From contig NZ_CP054493.1 in NCBI RefSeq assembly GCF_015265475.1, positions 2,046,001-2,110,000 of the forward strand: a DNA stretch of 64,000 nucleotides, in the 5' to 3' direction. Origin of the DNA: Candidatus Sulfurimonas marisnigri (GTDB lineage Bacteria > Campylobacterota > Campylobacteria > Campylobacterales > Sulfurimonadaceae). A model generated the notes under the pieces. That model ran no database searches and was not told the origin of the DNA. It saw nothing but the letters and a program-made list of their open reading frames with translations. Shown here in pieces: positions 319-63,081 of this stretch. A program made the translations under genes and the position numbers. Within the stretch, counting starts at the first letter, position 1; every line of letters begins with the position of its first letter.

Positions 319-1306
319 GAAACATACACTTCAAAAATTAAAAGATAAAAAAAATCTTTTAGCCTTTTCAGGCGGTGGCGACTCCACTGCTCTGTTTTTT
401 CTTCTTATAAAAAATCACATCCCCTTTGATATAGCAATCGTAAATTATGGAGTCAGAGAGCAGAGTAAAGAAGAAGTTCTTTACTCTAAAGAGTTGGCTA
501 AAACTCATAATTTAAAATGTCATGTATTTAATGCTGTAAAATTTGAAAAAAACTTTGAGGCGAGAGCAAGAGAGATTAGATATGATTTTTTTGAAGAGTT
601 GATTAAAACTTATGGCTATGAAAACCTTATAACTGCACATCATCTTGGTGACAGATTTGAGTGGATGCTTATGCAGTTTTGCAAAGGTGCTGGTTGTGCT
701 GAAATAGCTGGAATGCAAGTAGAGGATAACAGAGGTTTTTACACACTTATTCGTCCGCTACTTCATCTAGACAAACAAGAACTTTTAGCCTATCTACATG
801 CTAACAAAAGCAAATACTTTGAAGATGAGAGTAACCTAAATGAAGATATAAAAAGAAACTCTTTTAGACACAATTATTCACTTCCTCTTTTAGAAAAATA
901 CCTCTCTGGAATCAAAAAAAGTTTTGAGTATTTGGATGAAGACAGAAATAGTCTTATTCAAGAACTTGAAATTAATATTATTGGTGAGTTCGCATACTTT
1001 GAAAACTCACAAAATTCAAGAACTAACATCTACACAATTGACAAATATCTAAAACTAAAAGGCTACATGTTAAGTGCAAAAGAGAGAGAGCTTTTAAAGA
1101 GTGAAGAGACAGCCGTAGTTGGACGAAAATATGTAGTTAATCAAAATAGTGACTTTGTTTTTATTGCGCCATTTACAAATGCGGTAATGTCAAAAGAGTT
1201 TAAAGAAGAGATGAGAATTTTAAAAATTGAGCCAAAACTTCGCCCATACTTATATAAAAACCAAGAACTCTTTATAAAAATAAAAGAGTTACTTAGTCGC
1301 GGTTAA
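311..1306 (+). CDS. tilS: tRNA(Ile)-lysidine synthase TilS
   Basis: The enzyme modifies C34 of the CAU-anticodon tRNA-Ile to lysidine using ATP and lysine, so that AUA codons are read as Ile. The N-type ATP pyrophosphatase P-loop SGGGDS is at residues 20-25, followed by the typical ITAHHLGD-like segment near residue 110. At 331 residues it is a short TilS without the long C-terminal domain of the E. coli protein, which is usual for Campylobacterota. The start overlaps the rimO stop, and the 3' end overlaps the convergent PilO-like gene by 18 bases. Confidence is high from the P-loop and the length. Confidence 0.93.
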   Translation: MLEKHTLQKLKDKKNLLAFSGGGDSTALFFLLIKNHIPFDIAIVNYGVREQSKEEVLYSKELAKTHNLKCHVFNAVKFEKNFEARAREIRYDFFEELIKTYGYENLITAHHLGDRFEWMLMQFCKGAGCAEIAGMQVEDNRGFYTLIRPLLHLDKQELLAYLHANKSKYFEDESNLNEDIKRNSFRHNYSLPLLEKYLSGIKKSFEYLDEDRNSLIQELEINIIGEFAYFENSQNSRTNIYTIDKYLKLKGYMLSAKERELLKSEETAVVGRKYVVNQNSDFVFIAPFTNAVMSKEFKEEMRILKIEPKLRPYLYKNQELFIKIKELLSRG

Positions 1307-31838: not shown

Positions 31839-32093
31839 CTAAAAGCTATAATTCATCCAAAAAACAACTCTGTTAATCAAGCTACTATTTTTTTCATTCC
31901 TATTCTCAAGTTCTAATAAACTATTAGAGATATTAACCTTAAACACAAAGTTGCCAAAACTTATTGGCTTTATATCAATAAAATCATTAGAAAAAACATC
32001 TAAAACAAACTCATCCTGTTTAAGAGTTTCAGATGAAGCTCCTAAGGGACTAAACATAAAAAATGTCATAATGACAAATATTACAGTTTTCAT
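31839..32093 (-). CDS. Small exported protein under a putative riboswitch
   Basis: An 84-residue protein with a signal peptide (MKTVIFVIMTFFMFSPLGASS) and a short beta-rich mature part ending RVVFWMNYSF. The aromatic Phe end resembles an outer-membrane targeting signal but the protein is too short for a full barrel. The ATG at 32093 has a strong GGAGG; an upstream frame to 32150 lacks one. The leader holds a GEMM-like aptamer. Function unknown; c-di-GMP-controlled export or surface role is inference. Confidence 0.65.
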   Translation of the reverse strand: MKTVIFVIMTFFMFSPLGASSETLKQDEFVLDVFSNDFIDIKPISFGNFVFKVNISNSLLELENRNEKNSSLINRVVFWMNYSF

Positions 32094-32130
32094 GACCTTC
32101 CTCCATACAAATAAGTATAATGTCAGAACA

Positions 32131-32174
32131 TAAAAGTATATATAGCACACACCATGCTAATAACGCTTACACTT
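32131..32174 (-). terminator. Possible expression-platform terminator of the putative riboswitch
   Basis: On the minus strand AAGTGTA pairs with TATACTT (one G-U) and an inner TAGCA pairs with TGCTA, followed by TTTT. It lies between the aptamer and the start codon of the small exported protein, where an on/off terminator would be expected. The T-run is short. Confidence 0.35.
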
Positions 32175-32211
32175 ATAAAGAAATTTTGATAGATAAAGGA
32201 AAATGAGGTGT

Positions 32212-32296
32212 AAATACCTAGGCAGTCTGGCGATCTATAAAAGACCCATAACTTTCCGTGCTTGCTTCGCAACAAGGTTGGCTTTTTCTAATATTT
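32212..32296 (-). ncRNA. Putative c-di-GMP-I (GEMM)-like riboswitch aptamer
   Basis: Read on the minus strand the elements appear in GEMM order. There is CAACC and a hairpin with a GAA loop (CTTG..CAAG, 32261-32277). ACGGAAAGTT follows, corresponding to the conserved GACGCAAAGCC. Then ATGGGTCT-TTTAT-AGATC gives the second hairpin (32232-32246), and GCCAGACTGCC corresponds to GCCGGGTTGCC. AAATATT-AG and CT-A-GGTATTT close the whole as P1. A minus-strand GGG-TATAAT at 32309-32314 starts the RNA just upstream. Several consensus bases differ (the GGCA of the 5' side is not seen), so it is a divergent member or a related class. Confidence 0.5.
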
Positions 32297-32308
32297 ATCA
32301 ATACTATA

Positions 32309-32317
32309 ATTATACCC
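32309..32317 (-). promoter_or_regulatory. Promoter of the riboswitch transcript
   Basis: GGGTATAAT on the minus strand, the same form as the nusA and DEAD-box promoters. It places a start near 32302, about 6 nt before the aptamer P1 stem. Confidence 0.55.
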
Positions 32318-48298: not shown

Positions 48299-48341
48299 AA
48301 AAAGATTATAGACCCATTATTTAAAATATGAGCTTATTTGT

Positions 48342-48347
48342 TATAAT
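48342..48347 (+). promoter_or_regulatory. -10 box of the GGDEF gene
   Basis: TATAAT lies after the first possible ATG (48328) and 49 bases before the GTG at 48397, so the start at 48328 is unlikely to be on the mRNA. Confidence 0.5.
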
Positions 48348-48396
48348 AGCGCGCTTGATTAAAGATATTTTTATAAAAAAATCATTAAGGGAAAAT

Positions 48397-49641
48397 GTGC
48401 AAAGAATTTTAATAGTAGAAGACAATAAAACATTAGCAAAATTAATAAGTAAAAAAATAACCTCAGAACTTAATGTTAAAGTTGACATTGCATATAATTT
48501 TTCAGAATCAAAACTTTTTTTAAAAAGTTATAAATATTTTTTAACTCTGTTAGATTTAAATCTCCCTGATGCTCCCAATGGTGAAGTTGTTGACTATGCA
48601 TTAAGTAAAGATAATCGTGTGATTGTTTTAAGCGGAAATATAGATAAAGAGCTAAGAAAAAAGCTACTTAGCAAAAATATAATTGACTACATAAACAAAA
48701 GTGGTGTAAGTGATATTAAATATATTATCAACTTTATTAAGAGACTACAAAAAAATCAAAATCATAAAATTTTAGTGGTTGACGACTCTATGGTTTTTAG
48801 AAAACATATGAAAAGTATGTTAGAAAATCTTTTTTATGATGTAATCTCAGTAGCTCATGGGGAAGAGGCACTAAGTATGCTGAAAACTTATCCGGATATT
48901 TCTTTGGTACTAACAGACTACAATATGCCGGTAATGAATGGCCTTGAATTAACATCTGCCATAAGAAAAACCCGTGATAAAAATGATATTAGTATTATTG
49001 CTCTATCCTCTAATGAAAATGAGGAAATCGACGCTAGATTTTTAAAAGAAGGTGCAAATGATTATATTAATAAGCCTTTTTCTAAAGAGGAGTTTTCTTG
49101 TCGAGTCAACAACTCAATAGAATCCTTGGAAAATATACAGACTATCACAAACCATTCCAATAGAGACTTCTTAACTGGTGTTTATAATCGACGTTACTTC
49201 TTTCATAATGTACAAACTTATTTTGATACTGCACTTGAGAGTGGCGAAAGTTTTGCAATTGCTATGATAGATATAGATAACTTTAAAAACATAAATGATA
49301 CCTATGGCCATGACTCTGGAGATAAAGCCATTGTTCATTTATCTGATATATTAAGAGCAAACACTGCAGAAGATGATGTTGTATCAAGATTCGGTGGAGA
49401 AGAATTTTGCATTATTTTAAAAAACATTAGCTCTAAAAATGCTTTAACCGTACTAGAAAGAATAAAAAATAAAGTACAAAAGTCAGTGACTATTTCAGAG
49501 AAAAATGCAGAAATAAGCTTTACTATATCTGTTGGTTTAGTGACTAATCATGAAAACAGCCTTGATGAGACAGTAAACCAAGCAGACATGCTACTTTATG
49601 AGGCTAAGCAATCTGGAAGAAACAAAGTTATATCAAACTAA
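48397..49641 (+). CDS. REC-REC-GGDEF response regulator (putative diguanylate cyclase)
   Basis: Two receiver domains, the first degenerate (Asp in LLDLNLPDAP) and the second with Asp in LVLTDYNMPVMNG and Lys in INKPFS, are followed by a GGDEF domain with GGEEF. The substrate and metal residues (DIDNFKNINDTYGHDSGD) are present, so it should make c-di-GMP. The inhibitory RxxD site before GGEEF reads AEDD, so product feedback is probably lost. GTG at 48397 has AAGGGA; an ATG at 48328 lies before the -10 box. Confidence 0.88.
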   Translation: MQRILIVEDNKTLAKLISKKITSELNVKVDIAYNFSESKLFLKSYKYFLTLLDLNLPDAPNGEVVDYALSKDNRVIVLSGNIDKELRKKLLSKNIIDYINKSGVSDIKYIINFIKRLQKNQNHKILVVDDSMVFRKHMKSMLENLFYDVISVAHGEEALSMLKTYPDISLVLTDYNMPVMNGLELTSAIRKTRDKNDISIIALSSNENEEIDARFLKEGANDYINKPFSKEEFSCRVNNSIESLENIQTITNHSNRDFLTGVYNRRYFFHNVQTYFDTALESGESFAIAMIDIDNFKNINDTYGHDSGDKAIVHLSDILRANTAEDDVVSRFGGEEFCIILKNISSKNALTVLERIKNKVQKSVTISEKNAEISFTISVGLVTNHENSLDETVNQADMLLYEAKQSGRNKVISN

Positions 49642-60910: not shown

Positions 60911-61537
60911 TTATAAGTCTATATCTTCCCATTTTTGCACAAATTCATTTATTTCATTGTCTGGAACTTTGAGTCTAGAGGCTTTGGCGATTGTTCTTAA
61001 AACATCTGCTGCTTCTTTAAGATTATCATTAATTACCAAATAGTCATACTCGCTAATTCTCTGAATCTCTTTTTTTGCCATCTCTAAACGACGTTCTACA
61101 ACATCTTGGGCATCAGTTGAACGATCTTGTAAGCGTTTTTTTAACTCTGATAATGTTGGAGGAGATATAAAAACTGAGGTAGTAATATCTCCAAGTCTAT
61201 TGTTTACCAAAGTGTTTCCTTGAACATCTATGTCAAATAAAACTAACTTGCCTTCATTTAAAGATTTTTTAACAGGCTTGAGTGATGTTCCATAGTAGTT
61301 TCCATGCACAAAAGCGTACTCTAAAAAGTTGTCCTCTTCTATATCTTTTTTGAATTCTTCTTCAGATACAAAATAGTAGTGCACACCATTTTCTTCACCA
61401 TCTCTTATTTGTCTAGTTGTCGTTGATATAGAAAAATAGCATTCGCCAATATCATTAATAATTTCATTTAGTAATGAGCTTTTTCCTGCTCCACTTGGAC
61501 CTGAAAGAACTAAAATTGCACCTGTATTATTATTCAC
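60911..61537 (-). CDS. gmk: Guanylate kinase
   Basis: P-loop SGPSGAGKSSL (about residues 12-22) and the GMP-binding RDGEENGVHYYFVSEEEF region identify Gmk, which phosphorylates GMP to GDP. 208 residues. It overlaps the Glu-rich gene upstream by one base, so the two are coupled. Confidence 0.95.
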   Translation of the reverse strand: MNNNTGAILVLSGPSGAGKSSLLNEIINDIGECYFSISTTTRQIRDGEENGVHYYFVSEEEFKKDIEEDNFLEYAFVHGNYYGTSLKPVKKSLNEGKLVLFDIDVQGNTLVNNRLGDITTSVFISPPTLSELKKRLQDRSTDAQDVVERRLEMAKKEIQRISEYDYLVINDNLKEAADVLRTIAKASRLKVPDNEINEFVQKWEDIDL

Positions 61538-63081
61538 TACTTGTCACCTAAAGTTATATTAATACTTATCTTCATGCCTTTTAATGAAGCTGCAACATCT
61601 TCATTTGAGAGAGCTTTAAGTAATTTTTTCAAAGCTTCTACTCCATCATTATTATCTGTAGAATCAGAAACTTCTTCATCTAATTCTGCTTCATTTGTAT
61701 CTAAACTAGATTCATCTGGGCTTAACTGTTCATTTACTTCTGTGCTTTGAGTGTGCTTACTAATGCTCTCTTCAGGTACTTCTTCACCAATAGCAATTTT
61801 AATATCTCGACTAGTTATAGAATCTATGCTAAATAAAACATCTTCATCAATTTCACTTTGTAAATCTTCTTCACTCAACTCATCGACAGCATTTTGTATC
61901 TTGATTTCAAGATCTTCTGCCTCATCAACTTCTGTACTTTCACTAGATTCAGCATCAGACTCTAAATTTACTTCTTCTGGCTCTTCATTAAGTTCTAACT
62001 CTTCATCAGGTTCAAGCTCTTCTTCTGCTTCTTCGAGTTCTAGTTCTTCATCAAGCTCTAACTCTTCTTCAAGTTCAAGCTCTTCTTCTGCTTCTTCAAG
62101 TTCAAGCTCTTCTTCAAGTTCAAGCTCTTCTTCTGCTTCTTCGAGTTCTAGTTCTTCTTCAAGTTCAAGCTCTTCTTCTGCTTCTTCGAGTTCTAGTTCT
62201 TCTTCAAATTCAAGCTCTTCTTCTGCTTCTTCGAGTTCTAGTTCTTCTTCAAGTTCTTCGAGTTCATCAACTTCTTTAATTTCGCTAGATTCAGCATCAG
62301 ACTCTAAATTTGCTTCTTCTGGCTCTTCGAGTTCTAGTTCTTCATCGAGTTCTAGTTCTTCTTCGAGTTCATCAACTTCTGTACTTTCGCTAGATTCAGC
62401 CTCAGACTCTAAACTTACTTCTTCTGGCTCTTCATTTTCATCATCCATTTCTAAAAGACCTTCAATCTCTTGAATATCATCTTTATCAAGAATACTATCC
62501 CCACTCTCTTCATCAAAATCATCTAGATCATCAAAGTCCAATTCATCCTCATCTTCTTCTAGATTCTCTAAATCATCATCTAATTCTAGCTCGTCGAGAT
62601 TATCAAGTTCTGTTCCAATATTTATTTCATCGTCTTCGTCAATTTCTTCAAGCTCGCCTAGCTCTTCTAAATCCACATCATCAAGACCATCTAAATCAAA
62701 TAAATCACTAGATTCATCTGGTGAATCCAATTCTATATTCTCGTCATCTTCGTCTAGACTCTCTTCTTTATTTCCTAAAATTGCGAACAGTTCAACTAAA
62801 TCTGTTGGTAAAAAAGGTTTTTTTAAAGTTGAAGTAAAACCCTCTACTTTCTTGGCATCCTTAACACATAAATATAAAGATTTACTAAATACTATTTTAT
62901 CATTAAGTTCTTGCATGATTTCATCACTATACTTGGCATCATCAATCACTAAGAGATCATAATTAGTAGCCCCTATAGCATCTACATTACTAACCACATC
63001 CAACTCATCTGAAGTCTTCTGTGCACTTAGTGTAACTAGCTTATTAACTACTGGATTTTCATTTAAAAGTAATATTTTCAT
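61537..63081 (-). CDS. REC-like domain with long Glu-rich repeat region, unknown function
   Basis: The 514-residue protein starts with a degenerate receiver domain (about 1-105): VIDDAKYSDE in place of the acceptor motif, and LKKPFLPTDL at the usual Lys site. Then about 360 residues of Glu/Leu/Asp/Ser repeats follow, mostly LELEEAEEE-type and LESDAESSE-type. The last 40 residues (EALKKLLKALSNEDVAASLKGMKIS) are folded. No family recognised. It may be a scaffold for chemotaxis or flagellar proteins; fliR lies just upstream. Confidence 0.75.
   Translation of the reverse strand: MKILLLNENPVVNKLVTLSAQKTSDELDVVSNVDAIGATNYDLLVIDDAKYSDEIMQELNDKIVFSKSLYLCVKDAKKVEGFTSTLKKPFLPTDLVELFAILGNKEESLDEDDENIELDSPDESSDLFDLDGLDDVDLEELGELEEIDEDDEINIGTELDNLDELELDDDLENLEEDEDELDFDDLDDFDEESGDSILDKDDIQEIEGLLEMDDENEEPEEVSLESEAESSESTEVDELEEELELDEELELEEPEEANLESDAESSEIKEVDELEELEEELELEEAEEELEFEEELELEEAEEELELEEELELEEAEEELELEEELELEEAEEELELEEELELDEELELEEAEEELEPDEELELNEEPEEVNLESDAESSESTEVDEAEDLEIKIQNAVDELSEEDLQSEIDEDVLFSIDSITSRDIKIAIGEEVPEESISKHTQSTEVNEQLSPDESSLDTNEAELDEEVSDSTDNNDGVEALKKLLKALSNEDVAASLKGMKISINITLGDK
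62009..62262 (-). repeat. 45-bp tandem repeats in the Glu-rich gene
   Basis: Copies of TCTTCTGCTTCTTC start at 62021, 62084, 62129, 62174 and 62219. The last four are exactly 45 bases apart; the first gap is 63, from an 18-base insert. Each unit encodes about LELEEAEEELELEEE. Confidence 0.85.

Follow-up and report, generated by a model that had tools for sequence, protein, structure and literature searches.

A campylobacterotal form of the c-di-GMP-I riboswitch as a probable translational OFF switch of a small exported protein in Candidatus Sulfurimonas marisnigri

A leader RNA on the minus strand of the window (the whole stretch of 64,000 nucleotides analysed here) raises two questions: which ligand does it bind, and does binding turn the small-protein gene behind it on or off? 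Several parts of the first-pass annotation of this locus stood, namely a c-di-GMP-I riboswitch, a promoter-like sequence, a small exported protein and a cell equipped for c-di-GMP, whereas the terminator, the missing 5' block and the other ligand class did not. We consider it probable that the leader is a campylobacterotal form of the c-di-GMP-I riboswitch that acts as a translational OFF switch of the small exported protein (Table 1). From the sequence we infer the binding of c-di-GMP and the direction of the switch, as well as the outer-membrane location and the function of the protein.

Table 1. Features of the riboswitch locus and of the diguanylate cyclase gene in the window
Feature	Position	Strand	Remark
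c-di-GMP-I (GEMM-I) aptamer	32217..32291	-	RF03167 60.1 bits; RF01051 50.5 bits; covariation
P2 with GCGA tetraloop (loop 32267-32270)	32261..32276	-	
P3 with tetraloop receptor; G83 = 32231	32225..32252	-	
G20, predicted ligand contact	32282	-	A47 = 32255, C92 = 32222; contacts after Vc2, PMC4744006
Inverted pair C21 (32281) - G46 (32256)	32256..32281	-	C-G in 82/83 class aptamers, U-G in 1
C25.C42 (32277, 32260) replacing the usual A25.G42	32260..32277	-	pyrimidine.pyrimidine in 23/83
TATAAT -10 box, predicted	32309..32314	-	TATAAT/TATACT at a fixed short distance from GATAA, 22/23 window-type leaders
5' end GAUAAAUAUUAG, 5' strand of P1	32288..32299	-	GATAA in 23/23 leaders
3' strand of P1, CUAGGUAUUUA, with bulged A95 (32219)	32211..32221	-	
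Putative anti-SD/anti-start element UUUUCCUUUAUCUAUCAAAAUUU	32181..32203	-	complementarity to SD/start region
Hairpin before the SD	32111..32176	-	window z -2.8; mean z -2.8, 21/21 leaders
Shine-Dalgarno (SD) sequence GGAGGAAGG	32096..32104	-	
84-aa exported protein, signal peptide, C-terminal WMNYSF	31839..32093	-	dN/dS to nearest relative ~0.31
REC-REC-GGDEF diguanylate cyclase	48328..49641	+	start 48328 ATG or 48397 GTG

Aptamer bases and the likely ligand

A cmscan search of the whole 64-kb window gave one single match above a gathering score, to RF03167 (c-di-GMP-I-GGC) at 32217-32291(-), with 60.1 bits (gathering cut-off, 59) and E = 1.1e-11. Given this E value for 64 kb, chance is excluded. 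The main c-di-GMP-I family, RF01051, scored the aptamer at 50.5 bits (gathering cut-off, 35). The Infernal comparison that had been suggested for this locus was thus over threshold for both models, and the RF01051 score lies too far above its cut-off for a divergent, barely recognisable GEMM. The leader RNA is a real and complete c-di-GMP-I aptamer of a known kind.

The elements previously listed in GEMM order on the minus strand were each in place: GCCAACC, the P2 hairpin, ACGGAAAG, P3, GCCAGACTGCC and a P1 that contains G-U pairs. The P2 hairpin had been described as GAA-looped, but the loop is a GNRA tetraloop, GCGA. Vc2 numbering was anchored on ACGGAAAG and runs gap-free from position 20 to 50. 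The window then reads G20 C21 C22 A23 A24 C25, P2 CUUGUU-GCGA-AGCAAG and C42 A43 C44 G45 G46 A47 A48 A49, with G83, C92, C93 and a bulged A95 on the 3' side. The 21-46 pair of Vc2, which we take to be G-C and to give the usual 'GGC...CGC', is inverted in the window to 'GCC...CGG'. The 5' GGCA of P1 had been reported as missing; because the inverted pair turns GGC into GCC, this loss is only apparent, and no 5' block is absent.

In Vc2, c-di-GMP is contacted by G20, A47 and C92 (PMC4744006). All three are present in the window, as are the GNRA tetraloop on P2 and the C44-G83 interhelical pair expected of RF01051. Since these features occur together, the ligand is most likely c-di-GMP, and G20-A47-C92 reads as the ordinary c-di-GMP triad. 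Among the conserved c-di-GMP-I bases listed in PMC3764141, A25 and G42 are highly conserved; the window has C25 and C42 at these positions. Such a departure from highly conserved bases, Y25.Y42 (Y, pyrimidine), could reduce affinity.

We compared 83 distinct Campylobacteria aptamers, from which the canonical G-C aptamers L032 and L041 and the short L085 had been left out beforehand. Pairing in P2 (27-40 to 31-36) and P3 (51-88, 52-87, 54-86 and 56-84) amounted to 94-100%; each pair had double changes in 3 to 43 sequences, and 0/500 shuffles reached the observed values. Hence, the two helices covary strongly across homologues, as the first-pass annotation had asked for a genuine riboswitch. C44-G83 and A47 occurred in 83/83, C92 in 81/83 and G20 in 80/83, and position 21-46 was C-G or, once, U-G (Table 1). 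Position 25.42 was A.G in 59 and pyrimidine.pyrimidine (Y.Y, the sub-type of the window) in 23; it is a conserved feature that does not belong to the ligand-contacting bases. The aptamer form is peculiar to the class Campylobacteria.

How does this form relate to its closest relatives? With Vc2 and Vc1 of Vibrio cholerae (GEMM-I, RF01051), the aptamer has in common P1-P2-P3, the GNRA loop with its receptor, C44-G83, G20/A47/C92 and G14-C93 with bulged A95. It differs in that 21-46 is C-G and 25.42 is C.C, not A.G, and in having a putative anti-start platform with a hairpin before the SD and an undescribed target family. Compared with RF03167, the best-scoring family at 60.1 bits over 59, G20 and C92 are shared, whereas 21-46 and 25.42 differ. 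In addition, judged by its bases, the RF03167 label does not fit despite this score, because position 47 is G in the printed consensus but A in the window and in each of the 83 homologues. That G is presumably the meaning of 'GGC' in the name.

The GEMM-Ib/cGAMP riboswitches of Geobacter have the same fold and carry A20, which we take to be the mark of that group. We considered whether the window aptamer was of this A20 type; the ACGGAAAG anchor and the genus alignment gave G20 with no gap, which ruled it out. The enzymes of the host were compared with those expected of a cGAMP producer, in which Hypr GGDEF enzymes have Ser at the specificity position (PMC6456294). The specificity motif was readable in 28 of 40 GGDEF stretches examined; Asp, as in ordinary diguanylate cyclases, was found in 28/28 and Ser/Thr in 0/28, and no Hypr-type GGDEF was seen in the host genome. 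The unusual Y25.Y42 and the status of the top-scoring Rfam family as a named variant would speak for a different cyclic dinucleotide (cGAMP) or a novel ligand of the Y.Y sub-type. We consider this very unlikely: the contacts G20, A47 and C92 are canonical, 25.42 lies outside them, and the readable GGDEF domains carry Asp. The related ligand class proposed earlier is disfavoured on the same grounds.

The host is equipped to make c-di-GMP, as had been thought probable. Its genome (2.49 Mb) contains 45 GGDEF, 17 EAL and two MshEN matches, and the search for PilZ gave no match. The REC-REC-GGDEF enzyme annotated in the window was confirmed by a Pfam GGDEF match (5.7e-45), two Response_reg stretches and a GGEEF active site, with Asp at the specificity position. 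It is a possible source of the ligand, with no link to the riboswitch. Elsewhere in the window, an ORF of 514 aa (61537-63081, minus strand) adjoins a FliR-like gene and contains long imperfect repeats rich in glutamate and leucine.

Expression platform and direction of the switch

The promoter-like GGG-TATAAT noted earlier spans 32317-32309 (-), and the predicted transcription start is near 32302. Window-type leaders have the order TATAAT/TATACT, GATAA, aptamer, GUAUUUA-like 3' P1 strand, pyrimidine-rich UUUUCUUUAUCUAUCAUAAUUU element, hairpin, GGAG-type SD and AUG. The SD, described as strong, was found at 32104-32096 (-).

The element was complementary to its own SD/start region, with a mean of -8.24 kcal/mol; permuted partners gave -7.44 ± 0.24 (0/2000 reached the observed value) and shuffled elements -6.65 ± 0.45. 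With the register fixed at the start codon, 189 cells out of 231 were paired; sliding the register gave 141 or fewer, and permuting the rows gave 182.6 ± 1.5. The start-codon helix showed two-sided changes at a single pair (-2, two sequences). Taken together, the complementarity between element and start region is good and the covariation modest. The window leader pairs mainly through the SD part (UUUUCCUUUAU with AUGGAGGAAGG).

The 5' end of the RNA has two possible partners. Its GAUAAA can pair with UUUAUC at 32192-32197, and the pairing of the 5' end with the anti-SD element amounted to -5.0 kcal/mol (shuffled, -2.66 ± 0.27). The pairing with the 3' P1 strand amounted to -3.61 kcal/mol (shuffled, -2.42 ± 0.31) and had no partner specificity. 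The two pairings are mutually exclusive.

Between the element and the SD lies a hairpin that is stable in 21/21 leaders (mean z -2.8) though its sequence has diverged. It had been annotated as terminator-like. No U tract follows this stem, and the scan of the window leader for terminators found none. A riboswitch that terminates transcription would account for a strong hairpin between aptamer and gene; however, with the hairpin directly before the SD in 21/21 leaders and no terminator or U tract in the leader, we regard this reading as extremely improbable. The expression platform looks translational rather than terminator-based.

To simulate the switch, partition functions were computed for 23 leaders with P1 stabilised by soft constraints. 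The mean accessibility of the start region fell from 0.38 to 0.32, lower in 14/23 leaders and higher in 2/23 (Wilcoxon p 0.001, with rows that are related and not independent); the window itself changed little. The same aptamer and ligand could also form an ON switch, in which ligand-stabilised P1 exposes the SD, for instance because the freed 3' P1 strand would otherwise contribute to its occlusion. Both directions are known for the c-di-GMP-I class, with one ON and one OFF member (PMC9262584), and the two leaders that gained accessibility would agree with such a switch. We nevertheless think it unlikely: the 5' end taken up by P1 is the stretch that pairs with the anti-SD element, accessibility was lower in the 14 leaders, and no conserved pairing between the 3' P1 strand and the SD was seen.

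We favour the translational OFF switch on account of the element-SD complementarity, the exclusive 5'-end pairings, the hairpin before the SD, the drop in accessibility and the lack of a terminator, all taken together. The transcript would begin just 3' of TATAAT with (A)UUGAUAAAU. At low c-di-GMP, its 5' end would pair with the element UUUAUC(UAUC) on the 3' side of the aptamer and leave the SD uncovered. Once c-di-GMP is bound at G20, A47 and C92, P1 would form (AUAAAUAUUAG with CUAGGUAUUUA) and free the element. The freed element, kept near by the hairpin, would then pair with the SD and the start-codon region, and translation would drop. Several points count against the OFF switch: the simulated effect is small, the gain in the window is weak, only one pair changes on two sides and P1 has no partner specificity. 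An intact family member without an aptamer (G063) and four Y.Y aptamers upstream of other genes count further against it as the best explanation.

The small exported protein and its family

The gene for an 84-residue exported protein had been annotated correctly; it is the ORF 32093-31839 (-), which encodes a signal peptide. Close pairs of the small-protein genes gave dN/dS of ~0.05-0.31, and this purifying range shows that the gene is real. Family members have 84-102 aa, apart from one of 118 aa with an internal duplication. Common to them are a signal peptide, roughly four segments of beta-strand and an aromatic C-terminus of outer-membrane type, for example LNYxF. In L025 (G068), an in-frame duplication of ~30 residues was observed within the small exported protein.

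Searches of the window protein against Pfam, NCBIfam, PDB sequences and plasmids gave no match over threshold. Its AlphaFold2 model was not interpretable (pLDDT 49). The model of a relative (mean pLDDT 65) showed a signal helix and four strands (22-32, 35-45, 53-60 and 79-86), and Foldseek returned nothing significant. Based on the C-terminal end and the strand pattern, the family may consist of outer-membrane, probably oligomeric proteins. The YadA membrane anchor of a trimeric autotransporter offers a structural analogy, being likewise small and four-stranded with a C-terminal aromatic residue, at a Foldseek E of 1.5 and a TM-score of 0.41, which are not significant, and with no sequence similarity found.

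The small-protein gene was directly downstream in 22 of the 25 Y.Y loci of the genus (in L007, it continues onto another contig). Of the other three, L067 is at a contig end, and L012 and L078 are upstream of a CxxCH lipoprotein. Two further Y.Y aptamers, L131 and L140, come from MAGs labelled Campylobacterales and Helicobacteraceae, each with a gene for an exported protein of ~300 aa downstream. The link between the Y.Y sub-type and the small-protein gene is thus strong but not exclusive. A profile search found the family in 28 genomes; the matches in G014 and G015, which fall within a 624-aa frame, look spurious. Aptamer and gene were lost together in 3/4 cases with no aptamer hit: G032 has two stops in the gene and a degenerate aptamer, G024 has a deletion from inside the aptamer into the gene, and in G128 the aptamer is gone along with the 5' portion of the gene. 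The exception is G063, whose gene is intact with no aptamer. Three loci (L017, L062 and L029) have another small exported protein (128-129 aa) with an LNxRF-like C-terminus after a c-di-GMP-I aptamer, which may be a second such family.

Distribution and significance

At least one aptamer copy was present in 49 of the 135 species searched in the genus, with ~66 copies in total. In the class, RF01051 matched 43/397 genomes and 13/68 genera, so that the aptamer represents a recurrent signalling output in Campylobacteria. Records matching a DNA pattern of the window's sub-type were mostly Sulfurimonas. A second aptamer of the host genome (C1:1156234-1156314(-)) lies 58 nt upstream of a gene for a 507-aa protein, whose first 480 residues matched no Pfam family over threshold. 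That gene (L145, 4153-5676(-), C1) has relatives that follow aptamers in many congeners. Few c-di-GMP readers can be recognised in the host, where PilZ gave no match and MshEN two; the two riboswitches belong to these few, and their targets are concrete outputs that can be tested.

TPP was the sole riboswitch reported in C. jejuni leaders (PMC3847290), and Campylobacter and relatives have been described as near-devoid of metabolite riboswitches. The literature searched held no link of c-di-GMP riboswitches to Sulfurimonas; its coverage was incomplete, and prior notice elsewhere is possible. The aptamer itself is of a known kind, found by Rfam, and no new ligand class. What appears to be new is the inversion of the 21-46 pair throughout the class, together with the Y25.Y42 sub-type, the expression platform and the family of target proteins. 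We tentatively suggest, as a possibility short of an even chance, that the riboswitch has a lineage-specific form in Campylobacterota (inverted 21-46), of which one sub-lineage (Y25.Y42), with its own start-codon-covering platform, lets c-di-GMP repress an undescribed family of mini outer-membrane proteins, four-stranded and probably oligomeric, in a host with no recognisable PilZ receptors. The small-protein family would offer a compact system for studies of surface remodelling.

Some aptamers of the genus have other surroundings. L126 (G070; 1144-1270, minus strand) is a c-di-GMP-I aptamer with a long A/T-rich inverted repeat immediately after it, with no gene nearby. Related A20 aptamers in L076, L077 and L079 (G039, G097 and G058) lie ~424-464 nt 5' of an rpsB-like gene; the gap of ~400 nt has no convincing ORF or tRNA and is possibly the site of an orphan regulatory RNA. 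Finally, a canonical G21-C46 pair occurs in no aptamer of the genus except L032 (G021) and L041 (G022); both are upstream of similar proteins, which by eye resemble DUF4214, and both aptamers may have been acquired by horizontal transfer.
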